From positions 1-59,535 of the forward strand of contig JAKEGJ010000011.1 of assembly GCA_022627495.1 (NCBI GenBank): 59,535 bases of DNA. Direction: 5' to 3'. The translations under genes and the position numbers were made by a program. The notes beneath the pieces were generated by a model, which was not told the DNA's origin, ran no database searches, and was given only the letters and a program-made list of their open reading frames with translations. Origin of the DNA: Microcaldota archaeon. Its GTDB lineage: Archaea; Micrarchaeota; Micrarchaeia; Anstonellales; Bilamarchaeaceae. This document shows, one piece after another, positions 19,601-29,761 of this stretch (the stretch's first letter is position 1; each line of letters starts with the position of its first letter).

Positions 19601-19634
19601 ATATTCATTGTATAGAACAGAAACAGGTATATTT

Positions 19635-20966
19635 ATGGAGTCTGAAACAGAAGGCCAAAACCTGGAGTTTAAGGCCAGGTTCCCGGATTCGCAGCACGAT
19701 GTCGCAAAGGTTGCCTGCGCCTTTGCCAACGCGTTCGGGGGCAAACTCGAAATAGGCATTGGTGACCGGGGTGAGGTTGTCGGAGTTAGCGCTGATGAAG
19801 TGGACAGCGTGCAAAAGCATGTTGGTGACGCGATCCAAATGTTATCCCCGGTCCCATTCTATAAGATAACTGTGGAGAAACGTCAGGGCAAATCTATAGT
19901 CATTACAGAAGTATCGCCGATGGGAAGGGGCTTCTGCACGCTCGGCGGCATCGTCTATCATCGCTTCGGCAGCCAGAACAGGAAACTCGAAGGAAAGACA
20001 TTGCATGATTTTTTGATTCACCGCCAGGTTATTAGTTTCGATGAATCACAGAGTGATGCGTTGCTCGAGGATATAGATCCCGAAACGCTGGAGGAGTTTC
20101 TCAGGATACGCAACCCGTCACTGAAATTCGAGAAAGAAAAAATGGCGGAGTACCTCACAAACCTGAGGCTGGCCAGGCGAAACGGAAACCTGAAAATCAA
20201 TAACGCCGCCCTATTGTTCTTCTCCAAAGAACCAGCGCGCTTCATTCCCCAAAGCGAGGTAAAGCTGGTGCGTTTCAAAGGAACCGAAGCCCATACCGTA
20301 ATCGACTCGGCATATGCCAAAGCGACCATCCCGATCCTTCTGGACACTGCGGAGAAATTCATAGAAAAAAACACGCGAATGGCGCACAGGATAGAAGGAA
20401 TGTATAGGGTGGAAGTCCCGGAATACCCGAAAAGCGTGGTGCGCGAAGCGCTTGTCAATGCCATAGCACATAGGGATTACTTCAACTTGAACACGATCCA
20501 GGTAAACATTTTCGATGACCGCATGCAGATAACCAATCCAGGAACACTGCCGGAAGGACTGACACTGCAGATACTTGGGACCATTGCGATACAGCGCAAT
20601 CCCATCACATACGAGATTATGCGAGACCTCCATCTTGTTGAAGCCATCGGCACCGGCATAACGAGAATGCGGCAGGACATGCGCACGGCCGGCCTTCCGG
20701 AGCCTGCGTTCGAAGAAGTCGCCAATTTCTTCAGGGTCACGCTTTACAACAGCAAAAGGCCGTTGAACGTGCAGCTGAGCCCGCGCCAACAGATATGCGT
20801 GGAATACCTGGAGAAAAATCCGACGATAAGCGCCAAAACGTATATGCAGATCAATTCGGTAAGCCTGTTCACTGCTGCAACAGACCTGAAAGACCTGATG
20901 AAAAAGGGAGTGCTTGATCGTATAGGGAAGACGAGAGGCGCATACTACGTCTTCAAAAAAGGGTAA
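19635..20966 (+). CDS. AlbA_2 / Schlafen-like transcriptional regulator
   Basis: 443 residues from the ATG at 19635. The N-terminal part shows the AlbA_2 (Schlafen AAA_4) pattern: EGQNLEFKARFPDS, then FANAFGGKLEIGIGDRGEVVGV (about 8-60). A middle part carries the histidine-kinase-like ATPase fold of the HATPase_c_4 kind (REALVNAIAHRDYF ... GTLPEGLT ... GTGITRMRQDM). The end (about 390-443) is a winged helix: QICVEYLEKNPTISAKTYMQINSVS. Members are labelled transcriptional regulators or 'ATP-dependent DNA helicase RecG-like', and some sit in mobile or defence islands. Tandem 10-bp repeats precede it. The frame stays open for 47 codons after the TAA. Confidence 0.85.
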   Translation: MESETEGQNLEFKARFPDSQHDVAKVACAFANAFGGKLEIGIGDRGEVVGVSADEVDSVQKHVGDAIQMLSPVPFYKITVEKRQGKSIVITEVSPMGRGFCTLGGIVYHRFGSQNRKLEGKTLHDFLIHRQVISFDESQSDALLEDIDPETLEEFLRIRNPSLKFEKEKMAEYLTNLRLARRNGNLKINNAALLFFSKEPARFIPQSEVKLVRFKGTEAHTVIDSAYAKATIPILLDTAEKFIEKNTRMAHRIEGMYRVEVPEYPKSVVREALVNAIAHRDYFNLNTIQVNIFDDRMQITNPGTLPEGLTLQILGTIAIQRNPITYEIMRDLHLVEAIGTGITRMRQDMRTAGLPEPAFEEVANFFRVTLYNSKRPLNVQLSPRQQICVEYLEKNPTISAKTYMQINSVSLFTAATDLKDLMKKGVLDRIGKTRGAYYVFKKG

Positions 20967-21155: not shown

Positions 21156-23708
21156 TTATTTGCGAAACCTGGCTTTGTGTGACATCAGCTTCTTGGGAAG
21201 CCGGGCTTTGATGGCCATAAGCTTCTGCATCATCTGTTCCTTTGATGGCGGTAATGGCTTTGTGCACTTGGCGATTCCCGGGAAGTTGTTAAGCCCTTGG
21301 TAGCCATCCGAGAAGTCAGGATCAGTCACATCTCGTACCTGCATGCACAGGTCGTAACCGAAGAGTTTGGTGCCGGACTTGAGCGCAGTGATTGTGTTAT
21401 TGGCTGGAGGGTAGCCCTCCCAACTGTCGAACTTGAAACATCCCATTCCACTATTCCATCCTGGATAATCTCCGATGAAGTTTTCATTGGTGAATGTGTT
21501 GTATTCAACCGGACCGGCCTTGAGCAACCAGGGATAAGTCCAAATAGATACATCCACAACCAGGAAGCCTGCAATTCCTTCATACGCATCAACAGAACCC
21601 CATTTGTTATTCCTGAAGGTATTGTTGAATGAGTTGTTCCCAAGGAAACCTTGGCATGCGAATGCAAACGAATTTGAGAAGTCGTTCCTCTCATAAAAAG
21701 AATTCTCTGCATCCCGGACACAAAATCCGAAGATATAGGGGCCGCCTTCCACTATATTGTCAGTTACACGATTGTTCCTTGCGGGCAGCCCTGGATCCCA
21801 TATTTCGGGTGGGGAGCCGTCTCCGTCAGCGCTAATACCGAGAAAGCATATCGGGCCAATGGACGTTATATGGTTATTTCTTACTGTACAGTTGCTGGAT
21901 TGCCAGATGCTGATTCCATTACCGACCTCCCCATTCAATATGCATTGGTTTCCTTCAATCAGAGCGCCACGAATTGATCTGATTATTCCAATAGCCTGAG
22001 GCCAATAAATGAATTGAGGAGCAACAATATTAATGATATTGTCCTTTATTTCAGCATAACCCAGATCACCCTCAATAAGATGGGGGCTTACCACTATTCC
22101 AGAATCAGTGGCTTCGATGATATTGTTATTGATACGTATTATAGCGTTAGGAAGATCACGGCAATATATCCCTCTAGTGGCTCCGGAGGGCAAACTATTT
22201 TTAACATAGATAGTATTTCCTGTTGCCGTGACACTCCCCAGCGTATCTGAGTCATCTGCATTGATTGCACCACTTATGATTCCGTCGCCCAGCATCTCGA
22301 AACGGCAGTTTGTAACATTGAATGCCCCATTAAGGAATTGAGGTGTATCCACGCCTCCAAAACTATCAACAATCCGTGCAGTATTCGATGCAGATACTGC
22401 GTTTGACCATCTTTCGGCGCCGATGAGAGTCCAGGGGCCTTCAGTTTCTACTGTGTTTGTAAATACGCAATTATGGATATTTATATACTCTCTTGAGGAT
22501 TCCGCCAATATCGCAGAATATTGGCAGCTGTCGAAATGGACCCCTTCCACAGCCAGATTAAAACCTGTGGGATTCCCATTTGCATCAGGGGGGTTATGTT
22601 CATCCATAGTGATAGAACCAAATGCATTATCGTAGGAAAAAAGTAAATTCGTTCCTCCACCATAGATAGCTGACTGATTCGTGGTTGTTCCGTTTGGAAG
22701 AGTGATGCTTCCAGGCTCCCCTCTTATCGCCACATCGCGATACATTATTTTGACATGGCCAACGCCTCCAAAACCGCCCTGGCCGAAAAAGAAGTACATC
22801 GGGTTGCCAAGAGGGGTTGTGGATTTGGCGAGAACATTGTTGTAGTTATCAACTGCATACTGGAAATGTTTCACATCCCACTGGTAATATTTTGACCATA
22901 GTCCATCAGGAGTGTCCATAAGTGTCTTCCATGCGGATCGGATTTTGCCCAATCTTTCTAAGCGGGCTAAATACCGGTCATAGGTGATCCGATCATTGGA
23001 TTCAAAATATTCAAAAGAAGTTGGTACCCGATTTTCTCCATCCCAATAATAGAGAGTCGCTTTATTTTCTGCCAGCATTCCAGCAAAATCACGCTCAAAC
23101 TCGATCATAAAGAATCTTTCAAGCGTGTGTAAATCCTTGACAGTCCCCATCCATTCTTCCGAATCCCCCCATACGTGTACAATTAAAACGTATTCTTTGC
23201 TGAAGGATTCTTCTGGTATCTCGACATTCGGATAAGCAGGCGCGTTCGGTGCATTGCCTGAAACAACCGGGATATCCAAGTTATCCTTATCTGGCAAAGG
23301 ATCATCGGGGCCGTTCAAAACATAACCAGTAATTGTTCCTGGCAAGTACCAATCATAAGATGCATTTGCTTCGGTTCTTCCGCTTGGACCATATTCACCA
23401 GCCCAGTCCAGCGGATAAACCCAGACGCGCTGTTCTTCTGGATGATGAATAACATAGTCCGCATGGGGAGGCTCAGCATATGCCGCTCTCGCCACATTCC
23501 CCAATCCAAGTCCCGCCGCAGCGACCGCTCCAGCGGCAAGCCCTGCTCCTCTGAGGAAGCCGCCACGAGAAATGAGTCTTGGGTTTTGTGTCTTGAGTCT
23601 TGATCCTGTGCCCGGTCGTGTGTTCAGCCGCGAACCGCTCGAGCTCGTCAAACCCACCGAACCGAAATTCCCCGCATTCCTTCTTCCGAACCTGCTTGGT
23701 ACAACCAT
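21156..23708 (-). CDS. Large secreted right-handed beta-helix protein
   Basis: 850 residues. The start at 23708 is preceded by AGGTG and, further up, a TATA box (TTATAAATA near 23762-23771). A long N-terminal tail leads to SRGGFLRGAGLAAGAVAAAGLGL (residues about 47-69), a Tat-like signal in which the second Arg of the usual RR is Gly, followed by A-x-A-type cleavage sites. Residues about 300-780 carry many Asn-rich rungs (NVTNCRFEML, ITNRI-like NNNIIEAT, RNNHITSIG) typical of pectate-lyase-like beta-helices (Beta_helix/NosD repeats). The Lys/Arg-rich C-terminus is odd for an exoprotein. A paralogue lies at 50649-52286. Likely binds or cuts polysaccharide; no catalytic site is identified. Confidence 0.78.
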   Translation of the reverse strand: MVVPSRFGRRNAGNFGSVGLTSSSGSRLNTRPGTGSRLKTQNPRLISRGGFLRGAGLAAGAVAAAGLGLGNVARAAYAEPPHADYVIHHPEEQRVWVYPLDWAGEYGPSGRTEANASYDWYLPGTITGYVLNGPDDPLPDKDNLDIPVVSGNAPNAPAYPNVEIPEESFSKEYVLIVHVWGDSEEWMGTVKDLHTLERFFMIEFERDFAGMLAENKATLYYWDGENRVPTSFEYFESNDRITYDRYLARLERLGKIRSAWKTLMDTPDGLWSKYYQWDVKHFQYAVDNYNNVLAKSTTPLGNPMYFFFGQGGFGGVGHVKIMYRDVAIRGEPGSITLPNGTTTNQSAIYGGGTNLLFSYDNAFGSITMDEHNPPDANGNPTGFNLAVEGVHFDSCQYSAILAESSREYINIHNCVFTNTVETEGPWTLIGAERWSNAVSASNTARIVDSFGGVDTPQFLNGAFNVTNCRFEMLGDGIISGAINADDSDTLGSVTATGNTIYVKNSLPSGATRGIYCRDLPNAIIRINNNIIEATDSGIVVSPHLIEGDLGYAEIKDNIINIVAPQFIYWPQAIGIIRSIRGALIEGNQCILNGEVGNGISIWQSSNCTVRNNHITSIGPICFLGISADGDGSPPEIWDPGLPARNNRVTDNIVEGGPYIFGFCVRDAENSFYERNDFSNSFAFACQGFLGNNSFNNTFRNNKWGSVDAYEGIAGFLVVDVSIWTYPWLLKAGPVEYNTFTNENFIGDYPGWNSGMGCFKFDSWEGYPPANNTITALKSGTKLFGYDLCMQVRDVTDPDFSDGYQGLNNFPGIAKCTKPLPPSKEQMMQKLMAIKARLPKKLMSHKARFRK
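23582..23634. repeat. Degenerate CA-rich repeat in signal region of the beta-helix gene
   Basis: In coding orientation the region reads as repeated AAGACTC / AAGACAC / AAAACCC units, giving the RLNTRPGTGSRLKTQNPRL stretch before the Tat-like motif. It belongs to the same AACCC-type class as the repeats in ttuA, aroEK and the formyl-THF cyclo-ligase gene. Confidence 0.45.
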
Positions 23709-23896: not shown

Positions 23897-24343
23897 CTAA
23901 GACACCTTCTCTATCCGCACATGCGCCTCGTTGCCGGAATAGACCGAGGTTATCCTGATTTTTACCCAGCCGCCGGTGCCAGTCGCATCGACCACGATTC
24001 CGGGATTGCTGAGCGGGTATTTCAGGATGTCGCTTGGCTCCTGGGTCCCCTGGGGCGTCCTGATTTTCATTATGACTTCGCCGCCCCGGCCGGATTGGTT
24101 GGTTGCCAGGTATTCCGTGTTCGCCGGGATGTAGACGTCGGTTACGACCGACGTATTGGTCCCCAGGCTGCCGACTGAGTTCGCGAGCGATGCAATCCTC
24201 GTCACGGTGAGTTCAGCCTGGTATGAGGCAATCTGCTGGTTGGCTTCAGCCGTCTTCAGGTACACTAGCACCAGGAGCGGTATGAATATCAGAAGCACCA
24301 GTGCCACGATGACCAGGAGTTCCGTGCTTACCTGTCCTTTCAT
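23897..24343 (-). CDS. Pilin-like protein with class III signal peptide
   Basis: 148 residues. The start MKGQVSTELLVIVALVLLIFIPLLV is a textbook class III signal: basic residue, G-Q cleavage site with Glu at +5, then a hydrophobic helix that would form the filament core. The remaining 115 residues are a beta-rich head with N-x-S/T sites and no Cys. Prepilin peptidase would cut after Gly3. No pilus assembly ATPase or TadC gene is next to it, so it is either scattered or an anchored exoprotein. The 188-base gap before the beta-helix gene holds that gene's TATA box. Confidence 0.78.
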   Translation of the reverse strand: MKGQVSTELLVIVALVLLIFIPLLVLVYLKTAEANQQIASYQAELTVTRIASLANSVGSLGTNTSVVTDVYIPANTEYLATNQSGRGGEVIMKIRTPQGTQEPSDILKYPLSNPGIVVDATGTGGWVKIRITSVYSGNEAHVRIEKVS

Positions 24344-24358
24344 GATGATTTCCCTCCC

Positions 24359-25450
24359 TCAATGAGCGCGAGTGGTCCGGGGCTTGGGCTTGCGGAGCTC
24401 TTTCTTCTTGCGGAGAATCTCGTTGATTTCCACTGCAAGCTCGTCTATGCCCTCCTTCAGGGCGCCCCTTTCCGTCTTAAGCGAGATGTGGCCGTCGTCC
24501 GTGTCGAAATAAACGTTCACCACGTACGTGGACTTGCCGCTTTTAACATGGACGCTGGCGTTCCGGATGTTGAACGATTCGCCGAACTTCTCGAGCACGT
24601 GCCCAATCTTGGCGTATATCCTGCTGAAATACGCGGCATCGTCCTGGCTGAGGCCGGATACCTGGATCTGGATGCCGTCTTTGGACATCTCCTGCACTTT
24701 CTTGAATATGTCGAGCGCCGAGACCACGCCGACCGGCTTGCCTTCGGTGACTACTATCACGGTCGAAACCTGCTTGTCTATCATCCTCCTGACGGCTTCC
24801 TCGAGCGTGGCGTTTTCCTTGACAAGTGTTGCTTCCGGCCGCAGGAACTCGGATATCTTCATCTCTTCGACGTTTATCGGCTCGGACATGCGGATGTCCT
24901 TCCGCCCCCCGGTGAGGTTCGGCTTCCCGCTCCAGGTGCCGATATCGTATGTGGAAACGACGCCGATTAATTTGCCCATCCGGGTCACGACCAGCCTGTG
25001 CGTGTCCTTCTCCCTGAGCGTCCGCTTGGCGCTGCCGACAGTCTCGCCCTCGTCGATGATGTACGCCGGGCTGCTCATGAGCTCGGATACCTGCATCTGG
25101 GGGACCATGCTCTCCACGGCCATTTCTTTAAGGAGCTCGACTCTCGTAGTCAGGCCGAGCGGCTTCTTATCCGAGTCGAGCACCGGGAGCGCCTTGAAGT
25201 GGCCGAGGAGGAACGCCTCGACGCGCTCCGGCACGCCCGCAGATTCCATCAAGACTGGCGGCTTTGCTATCACGGTCTCGCATTTCACCTTGTGCGGGTC
25301 GCGTATGCCGTGGCTTATGCAACGGTGGTCGATTATCCCGAAATAACCCCCGTTCTTGGTCACTATGACCGCCGGCGACTCGTCAAGCTCAGTAAGCGCT
25401 TTCGAGAGAGAATCCGAACTATCCAGAACCAATGCCCGTACGATTTCCAT
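24359..25450 (-). CDS. Four-CBS protein with C-terminal HPF/RaiA-like domain
   Basis: 363 residues. Four CBS motifs follow in order: about 1-52 (SLSKALTELDESPAVIV), 58-115 (GHFKALPVLDSDKKPLGL), 122-175 (LREKDTHRLVVTRMGKLIGVV) and 190-245 (QVSTVIVVTEGKPVGVV). CBS pairs sense adenine nucleotides. Residues about 253-350 have the order of the ribosome-hibernation fold: strand IQIQVSGLS, long helix, strands ASVHVKSGKS, YVVNVYFDTD and GHISLKTER, then the final helix DELAVEINEILRKKKELR. The very basic end (KPKPRTTRAH) would suit rRNA contact. This suggests a nucleotide-sensing ribosome factor; that is inference from pattern. It shares a bidirectional TATA with scpA. Confidence 0.8.
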   Translation of the reverse strand: MEIVRALVLDSSDSLSKALTELDESPAVIVTKNGGYFGIIDHRCISHGIRDPHKVKCETVIAKPPVLMESAGVPERVEAFLLGHFKALPVLDSDKKPLGLTTRVELLKEMAVESMVPQMQVSELMSSPAYIIDEGETVGSAKRTLREKDTHRLVVTRMGKLIGVVSTYDIGTWSGKPNLTGGRKDIRMSEPINVEEMKISEFLRPEATLVKENATLEEAVRRMIDKQVSTVIVVTEGKPVGVVSALDIFKKVQEMSKDGIQIQVSGLSQDDAAYFSRIYAKIGHVLEKFGESFNIRNASVHVKSGKSTYVVNVYFDTDDGHISLKTERGALKEGIDELAVEINEILRKKKELRKPKPRTTRAH

Positions 25451-25476
25451 AAGTTGCCACGCCTCGCGCAGTTGTT

Positions 25477-25489
25477 AAATTATATAAAG
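25477..25489. promoter_or_regulatory. Bidirectional TATA between CBS-HPF gene and scpA
   Basis: The stretch AAATTATATAAAG reads as a TATA box on both strands. It lies about 27 bases before the scpA ATG (25512) and 27-35 bases before the CBS gene ATG (25450). With only 61 bases between the two starts, both genes probably share this element and give leaderless or near-leaderless transcripts. Confidence 0.6.
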
Positions 25490-25511
25490 TAAATAGGTAT
25501 ATAAACCATAT

Positions 25512-26240
25512 ATGGCGAACCAGGTGCAGTTGCAGCCGCTCCAGCAGTTCTCCTACATAGAAAACATGGTCTCGAAACCGACCTGGAAAGACATACTTCT
25601 CGAATTGATCGCGTCCAACTCCATCGACCCATGGAACATCGACCTCATAACGCTCGCCGACGGCTTCATCCGGAAAGTCAAGGAGATGGAGCGCATGGAT
25701 TTCGTGGTCCAGGCCAACGTCATCCTCGCGGCATCGATACTCCTCAAATACAAGAGCGATTACCTAAAAGCGCTCAGCGTTCAGACGGAAATTCCCGAAT
25801 TCGCCGCGGCGGACGAGGCGGGCTTCCCGGAACCGGAGGCGCTCCCGCAGCTCACCCTCTCCTCCCGCATCCCGCCCAAGCGGCAGATAACCCTGGACGA
25901 GCTCGTTTCCGAGATGGAGCGCATCATCAAGTACGACGAAGTGGAGCGCGTCCGCATCCCCAGGGGCGGGATACTGGAGACAATCGACATGGACCTGGGC
26001 GAGCGCAACATAGAAGAGGACATGGCGCTCACGATGGCGCAGGTCCGGGAGAACACAGATTCGGAAGGCTGGTCGCTATTCTCCCGCCTGATAGCTGGCA
26101 GAGACATGCGCGACACGGTCTATACGCTCCTCTGCGTCCTCCACCTCGTCCAGCTGGGCTCATTGGACCTGAAGCAGGACAAGATGTTCGGCGAGATTTT
26201 CATTTTCGTTCCCAAGGAAAAACAGGCCGCTCCGGAATAG
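25512..26240 (+). CDS. scpA: Segregation and condensation protein A (kleisin)
   Basis: Kleisin that bridges the heads of an SMC dimer in chromosome organisation. 242 residues. The N-terminal signature WKDILLELIASNSIDPWNIDLI and AASILLKYKSDYL bind the SMC neck. A charged linker leads to the C-terminal winged helix (TVYTLLCVLHLVQLGSLDLKQ, about 195-235) that binds the SMC cap. Neither smc nor scpB is adjacent, so they must lie elsewhere. The start is supported by a TATA box 27 bases upstream. Confidence 0.9.
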   Translation: MANQVQLQPLQQFSYIENMVSKPTWKDILLELIASNSIDPWNIDLITLADGFIRKVKEMERMDFVVQANVILAASILLKYKSDYLKALSVQTEIPEFAAADEAGFPEPEALPQLTLSSRIPPKRQITLDELVSEMERIIKYDEVERVRIPRGGILETIDMDLGERNIEEDMALTMAQVRENTDSEGWSLFSRLIAGRDMRDTVYTLLCVLHLVQLGSLDLKQDKMFGEIFIFVPKEKQAAPE

Positions 26241-26429: not shown

Positions 26430-26810
26430 TCACTCGATGACGGTCGCGCCCGGCTTCGCCTTCGGCTTTGATTTCACGATTTTCACGTTCGCCGGGGTGA
26501 GCAGGATCATCTCGTTCGAAAGGAGCGCTATGTCGCCGTTAATCCTTCCGGCGTGCGTCTTCAGTTTCGAGATTATTCCCTTCAGCCGGTTCGGCTGCTT
26601 GGAAAGCGGGATCACGTTCAGGATGATGATGTTCTTCGAGCCGAGCTCCTTGAGCGCCATCTCTCCGTCGCCTTCGTTCCTCAAATCAACCCTCTTCACA
26701 TAGAAATCTGCAGGGGGGCTAACGACGTCTCCCTCGGTTCCCATCAGCTCTTCAAGGTCAGGCACTTCTGGTTCTTCATTCTTACCCAAAATCTTATCGA
26801 AAAGTCCCAT
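26430..26810 (-). CDS. sepF: SepF-like cell division protein
   Basis: Membrane anchor for FtsZ in archaea. 126 residues. The start MGLFDKILGK is the amphipathic membrane-targeting helix of archaeal SepF. A short acidic linker is followed by the globular core (about 38-115): YVKRVDLRNEGDGEMALKEL, NIIILNVIPLSKQPNRLKG, INGDIALLSNEMILLTPANV. A short Lys/Pro-rich tail ends the protein. ftsZ is not in the window. A TATA-like TTTAAAAAG lies at about 26866-26876. Confidence 0.9.
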   Translation of the reverse strand: MGLFDKILGKNEEPEVPDLEELMGTEGDVVSPPADFYVKRVDLRNEGDGEMALKELGSKNIIILNVIPLSKQPNRLKGIISKLKTHAGRINGDIALLSNEMILLTPANVKIVKSKPKAKPGATVIE

Positions 26811-29059: not shown

Positions 29060-29761
29060 TCATCTGACGAGGTTCCCGGCGGCCAGGACCTCCCCTCCGA
29101 GATAGATATAGGTCCGGTTCTTGCCTTTTTTCTTGGCTTCCTGCTCCGCCTCGTTGGCCTTGTCTATCAGCGTGTCGAGGCTGTCACCCGAGCCCAGCCG
29201 GGCGACTCCTACGCTGATTGTCACATGGACGGCCTCGCCTCCGGTATGGGGTGTGATGGCGAGCCCCGCCACCTTTTTCCTGATCCTTTCAGCAGTCCTG
29301 CAGGCCGTCCTGAAGGATTTCAATTCGGGAAGCAGGATCACGAATTCCTCCCCGCCTATGCGGAAGACGCTGTCATACGGCCTCAGGCTCGCCTCGACCG
29401 TCTTCACCACGTCCTTTAGCACCATGTCGCCGGTCGTCTCGCCGTACTCCTTGTTGAACAGCCCGAAATTGTCTATGTCAAAAAAAAGCATGAAAAGCTT
29501 CTTGCTCCTGAAGCGCTCGGTCTTGGAGCACTCGTCGGGGAATTTCTTTTCCAGGCCCCTGCGGTTGAACGCGCCTGTCAGGGGGTCGGTGAGCAGCTGC
29601 TCCTCCGCGGTTGTCCTGCGGGCTTCCTCGACCATCAGGCTGTTCCGCAACTCGTGGAGCTGCCGCGTAAGCGTGAGGACCTTGTCCTTCTGCTCCCGCA
29701 AATGGTGGCAGCCGCCGGCATCAGGGCATGGCTCTTTGCACAGCTTCTTTCCCCCATTCAT
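29060..29761 (-). CDS. GGDEF-domain protein, predicted diguanylate cyclase
   Basis: 233 residues. N-terminal Cys-rich stretch (CKEPCPDAGGCHH, residues 8-20), then a coiled coil (about 22-57), then a full GGDEF domain: DPLTGAFNRRGL, FFDIDNFGLFNKEYG, RIGGEEF at 134-140, and VTISVGVA. The active-site variant GGEEF is competent in characterised cyclases, and the RxxD inhibitory site (RPYD, 127-130) sits exactly five residues before it. The predicted product is cyclic di-GMP. A TATA box (TTATAAACA, near 29786-29794) lies about 28 bases before the ATG. Such domains are rare in archaea, so bacterial origin is likely. No EAL or PilZ gene is nearby. Confidence 0.88.
   Translation of the reverse strand: MNGGKKLCKEPCPDAGGCHHLREQKDKVLTLTRQLHELRNSLMVEEARRTTAEEQLLTDPLTGAFNRRGLEKKFPDECSKTERFRSKKLFMLFFDIDNFGLFNKEYGETTGDMVLKDVVKTVEASLRPYDSVFRIGGEEFVILLPELKSFRTACRTAERIRKKVAGLAITPHTGGEAVHVTISVGVARLGSGDSLDTLIDKANEAEQEAKKKGKNRTYIYLGGEVLAAGNLVR

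Follow-up and report, generated by a model that had tools for sequence, protein, structure and literature searches.

The window analysed here, a 59,535-nucleotide stretch of contig JAKEGJ010000011.1 from a Micrarchaeota genome, carries a reverse-strand open reading frame that begins with ATG and encodes a 363-residue protein, as originally predicted. Of 59 related genomes searched for homologues, 57 gave a match to this protein, mostly along its full length and at 26-81% identity, so it is not a chance open reading frame; named relatives were labeled 'Candidatus Micrarchaeota archaeon' in nearly all cases. The protein joins four CBS domains to a C-terminal HPF/RaiA domain (Table 1), confirming that the fusion of the two modules is real. 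On the opposite strand, 61 bp away, lies the gene that had been described as acting in chromosome condensation, which was identified as scpA.

Table 1. Features of the hibA-like locus, in window coordinates.
Feature	Position	Strand	Evidence
hibA-like gene, 363 aa, encoding four CBS domains followed by an HPF/RaiA domain	24359..25450	-	ORF, profile match to 9sr9_H
CBS1-CBS2, first Bateman half, ~aa 1-112	25115..25450	-	model secondary structure, VIA alignment, column counts
CBS3-CBS4, second Bateman half, ~aa 120-254	24689..25093	-	alignment columns, Pfam CBS 199-252
Flexible CBS3-CBS4 loop, aa 177-189, corresponding in position to the HibA 'PTC loop'	24884..24922	-	pLDDT <50
HPF/RaiA domain	24392..24676	-	predicted model, tail profile, VIA alignment
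Basic C-terminal tail, aa 345-363, net charge +8	24362..24418	-	residue count
Divergent intergenic region, 61 bp, with AT-rich TATA-like pair	25451..25511	.	genus comparison
scpA, chromosome segregation/condensation protein, divergent neighbor	25512..26240	+	PF02616, E 4.1e-11
Small class III signal peptide (pilin-like) protein gene, co-directional, 15 bp downstream of hibA	23897..24343	-	PF04021, E 0.0055 (below curated cut-off)

Pfam reported three CBS stretches in the protein (E 1.6e-26), one of them at residues 199-252, and a structure model built from a 29-sequence alignment (mean pLDDT 84.9, pTM 0.65) contained four CBS folds. In this model, residues 1-256 form a four-CBS module resembling 3ddj and MJ1225, which VIA alignment placed over residues 1-265 (Z 23.2 for 3ddj), and these results together bear out the four CBS motifs proposed upstream of the tail. 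Structural similarity was also high to the ribosome-bound Dri of Pyrobaculum and to SriA-SriD, the four-CBS modules found on Methanosarcina ribosomes, although both lack an HPF domain and Dri has two CBS modules. Across the 29 sequences the Ghh[S/T]xxD ligand motif is intact only in CBS3 (G163, S166 and D169) and CBS4 (G241, S244 and D247) and is absent from CBS1 and CBS2, with G163, D169, G241 and D247 invariant. Together, the CBS3 and CBS4 motifs are likely to represent a single predicted AMP/ATP site.

The tail was modeled with the strand-helix-strand-strand-strand-helix order of HPF (strands at 261-265, 297-304, 309-317 and 320-328; helices at 274-293 and 331-353), with pLDDT mostly 81-93 as far as residue 350. 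This order agrees with the original prediction, whereas the proposed start at residue 253 does not, since the domain begins near residue 259. Comparison with known structures likewise gave an HPF topology and no departure from that fold: chloroplast pY/HPF superposed on the tail with Z 13.7 and an rmsd of 2.0 over 97 residues (VIA alignment), and the tail profile matched E. coli HPF (6h4n; E 3.2e-6) together with YfiA and other HPFs (E 3e-6 to 4e-6). Matches of the same profile to the C/EBP-beta coiled coil were judged compositional. The single 363-residue sequence gave no match to PF02482 (Ribosomal_S30AE) in Pfam, and HPF was missing from the Foldseek top list for the model, which was filled by CBS modules; the domain was found only by profiles and structure. 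The basic tail expected of an HPF is also present, with nine K/R against one D/E among the last 19 residues (345-363), and conserved basic residues include K288, K303, K306 and K348-K350.

This architecture is that of HibA, an archaeal ribosome hibernation factor combining a CBS module with an HPF/RaiA domain, which was published in April 2026 in Nat Commun and is present in 47% of archaeal genomes (PMC13324472). The combination of a sensor-type module and a ribosome effector in one chain, supported here by both fold and homology, is thus not new, contrary to what had been supposed. Bacterial and chloroplast HPF/YfiA/pY proteins differ in that they are free-standing or fused to a C-terminal dimerization domain and lack the CBS module. 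The family profile matched Pyrococcus abyssi HibA (9sr9_H, from PDB 9SR9) across both modules at E 6.7e-33 (profile positions 9-349), which identifies the 363-residue protein as HibA by the features examined; the single sequence matched at E 2.6e-15 over the CBS part only. The profile also aligned end to end with 9l96_a, a 406-residue CBS domain-containing chain (E 7.1e-29), for which a literature search on entries 9l96 and 9l98 found no paper. HibA chains did not appear in the top lists of Foldseek or VIA-align, but their absence there is no argument against placing the protein in this family. The domains and their fold, the homology, the conserved motifs and the phyletic spread are all direct observations of this analysis, and we consider it very probable that the protein is a Micrarchaeota HibA and acts as a ribosome hibernation factor.

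Like P. abyssi HibA (Q9UYR4; PDB 9SR9-9SRF and 9T7H; PMC13324472), the Micrarchaeota protein has four N-terminal CBS domains, a flexible CBS3-CBS4 loop and a C-terminal HPF/RaiA domain; in the P. abyssi protein these modules span residues 1-269 and 270-392 (PMC13324472). In the profile alignment no large gap separates the loop from its P. abyssi counterpart, and the ligand motif pattern fits the single adenylate that P. abyssi HibA holds per module at CBS3/4. The two proteins differ in length (363 versus 392 residues), share low identity and come from different host lineages, with scpA as a neighbor on the Micrarchaeota side. Both archaeal-specific HPF insertions of P. abyssi HibA are missing from the Micrarchaeota protein and from all 29 Micrarchaeota sequences in the alignment; at each of the two sites P. 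abyssi HibA is about four residues longer than the Micrarchaeota profile. The comparison is drawn against 9sr9 and 9l96, two sequences of known structure from outside the Micrarchaeota, and is not a survey of Archaea. In P. abyssi the insertions touch uS12 and uS19, and a variant without either of them (residues 283-285 removed and 324-330 replaced by AA) still inhibits translation in vitro (PMC13324472). Function therefore remains plausible in Micrarchaeota despite the missing insertions, although, given these and the low identity, some ribosome contacts must differ. The Micrarchaeota HibA can be regarded as nature's equivalent of the deletion variant made in the laboratory, and it places a well-supported HibA in a DPANN-type lineage (genomes here mostly 0.5-2 Mb) that has kept the full CBS-HPF fusion, though with neither insertion. 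What remains new, the HibA family itself being known, is this variant and its conserved pairing with scpA.

For ribosome binding, protection and any role of the nucleotide, we infer from work on P. abyssi and T. barophilus, which comprises cryo-EM, translation inhibition and a T. barophilus delta-hibA phenotype (PMC13324472). HibA binds the mRNA/tRNA channel of the 30S subunit and protects the 70S ribosome, on which it adopts three conformations; it inhibits translation, and T. barophilus cells that have lost hibA show smaller 70S pools and resume growth later (PMC13324472). By analogy, the Micrarchaeota HibA probably plugs idle ribosomes and protects them in starvation. The N-terminal four-CBS module, probably with one adenylate bound between CBS3 and CBS4, would swing over the 50S side and fill the vacant tRNA sites, with the flexible CBS3-CBS4 loop reaching the peptidyl-transferase center in one state. 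An idle 70S ribosome would thus be held together in an inactive, protected form until HibA is displaced by competing mRNA and tRNAs. A free HPF (PF02482) was sought in the same genome and not found, which is weak evidence because the assembly is 81.6% complete. SBDS, the other factor seen on dormant ribosomes (PMC13324472), is present.

Since the transcription regulator HhpR is among the relatives of the CBS module, the module might instead work mainly away from the ribosome, for example in transcription control, with the HPF tail as a relic. We regard this as highly improbable, because the fold and basic residues of the tail are conserved in 29 sequences down to 34% identity, which argues that its function is retained. 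A refinement of the hibernation reading, and one compatible with it, is energy gating, in which AMP at CBS3/4 would promote ribosome engagement and ATP would relieve it, much as the AMP/ATP switch of the original prediction. That the ligand motif of CBS3 and CBS4 is invariant is consistent with such gating, as is the preference of P. abyssi HibA for AMP (Kd 12 uM) over ADP and ATP (PMC13324472). However, neither AMP nor ATP clearly changed the states of ribosome-bound P. abyssi HibA, and its native complexes showed no nucleotide (PMC13324472). We hold the energy switch as a tentative hypothesis, possible yet doubtful, alongside the preferred role of the Micrarchaeota HibA as a plug of idle ribosomes.

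Among the 32 same-family genomes that have hibA plus its upstream sequence, 28 encode scpA directly divergent from it. One more pair, in G036, is apparently split at a contig end. Elsewhere in the family scpA lies 1.5-2.2 kb from hibA on the same contig (G021 and G025) or on a different contig (G027 and G031). No scpA was found next to hibA in the other families examined, in which three hibA loci had less than 1.5 kb upstream and the PF02616 match, where found, was usually on a contig other than that of hibA. The TATA-like pair in the intergenic region consists, in the reverse-strand reading, of two TTTATATA separated by about 9 bases. Of the 15 same-genus genomes in which hibA and scpA are divergent neighbors, 14 carry it, compared with 0.03 expected under single-base shuffling, and only 4 such arrangements occur genome-wide. 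Its distance is fixed relative to the scpA start (4-7 nt) and variable relative to the hibA start (40-154 nt), which would suit a promoter from which scpA is transcribed without a leader; part of it may or may not also be used by hibA. This spacing weakens the idea of a promoter element common to both genes: the conserved divergent neighbor stands, and the common promoter remains a hypothesis.

A single divergent control region could still set hibA and scpA together or oppositely, tying translation dormancy to chromosome compaction, in a manner compatible with the hibernation role. The adjacency within the family and the conservation of the TATA-like pair in the genus favor such a link, as does the recovery of P. 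abyssi HibA in pull-downs with DNA replication and recombination proteins (work cited in PMC13324472). Set against this, the AT-rich element tracks scpA rather than hibA, the pairing is confined to one family among those examined, and conserved gene order by itself does not prove co-regulation, so we judge shared control unlikely. Our specific proposal, that the pair is kept because ribosome dormancy and chromosome compaction are set together, possibly because promoters within the 61 bp between them exclude each other or because HibA contacts chromosome proteins, is a speculative one that we think quite unlikely to hold. The conserved pairing nonetheless provides a testable lead on the reported connection between HibA and chromosome proteins.

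Several other genes surround the locus. The class III signal peptide gene downstream of hibA is kept in the family and in several others, so that across the taxonomic order this arrangement reaches further than the pairing with scpA. Convergent with scpA is a gene for the cell division protein SepF (26430-26810, reverse strand; PF04472, E 1.2e-08), which often lies beside scpA in relatives. Further along, a GGDEF protein (29060-29761, reverse strand; PF00990, E 1.2e-37) has GGEEF and an RxxD five residues upstream (RPYDSVFRIGGEEF), and so resembles, here in a Micrarchaeota genome, a canonical diguanylate cyclase that has an inhibitory site; its homologues are found in two same-genus genomes (74-76%) and once more in the same family (51%). 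On the other side of hibA, an 850-residue protein (21156-23708, reverse strand) begins with a Tat-like stretch (SRGGFLRGAGLAAGAVAAAGLG) and also has a right-handed beta-helix region, for which the PF13229 match (E 1.5e-05) falls slightly short of the cut-off, and a protein with Schlafen AlbA_2 and RecG-C-like ATPase domains is encoded at 19608-20966 on the forward strand.
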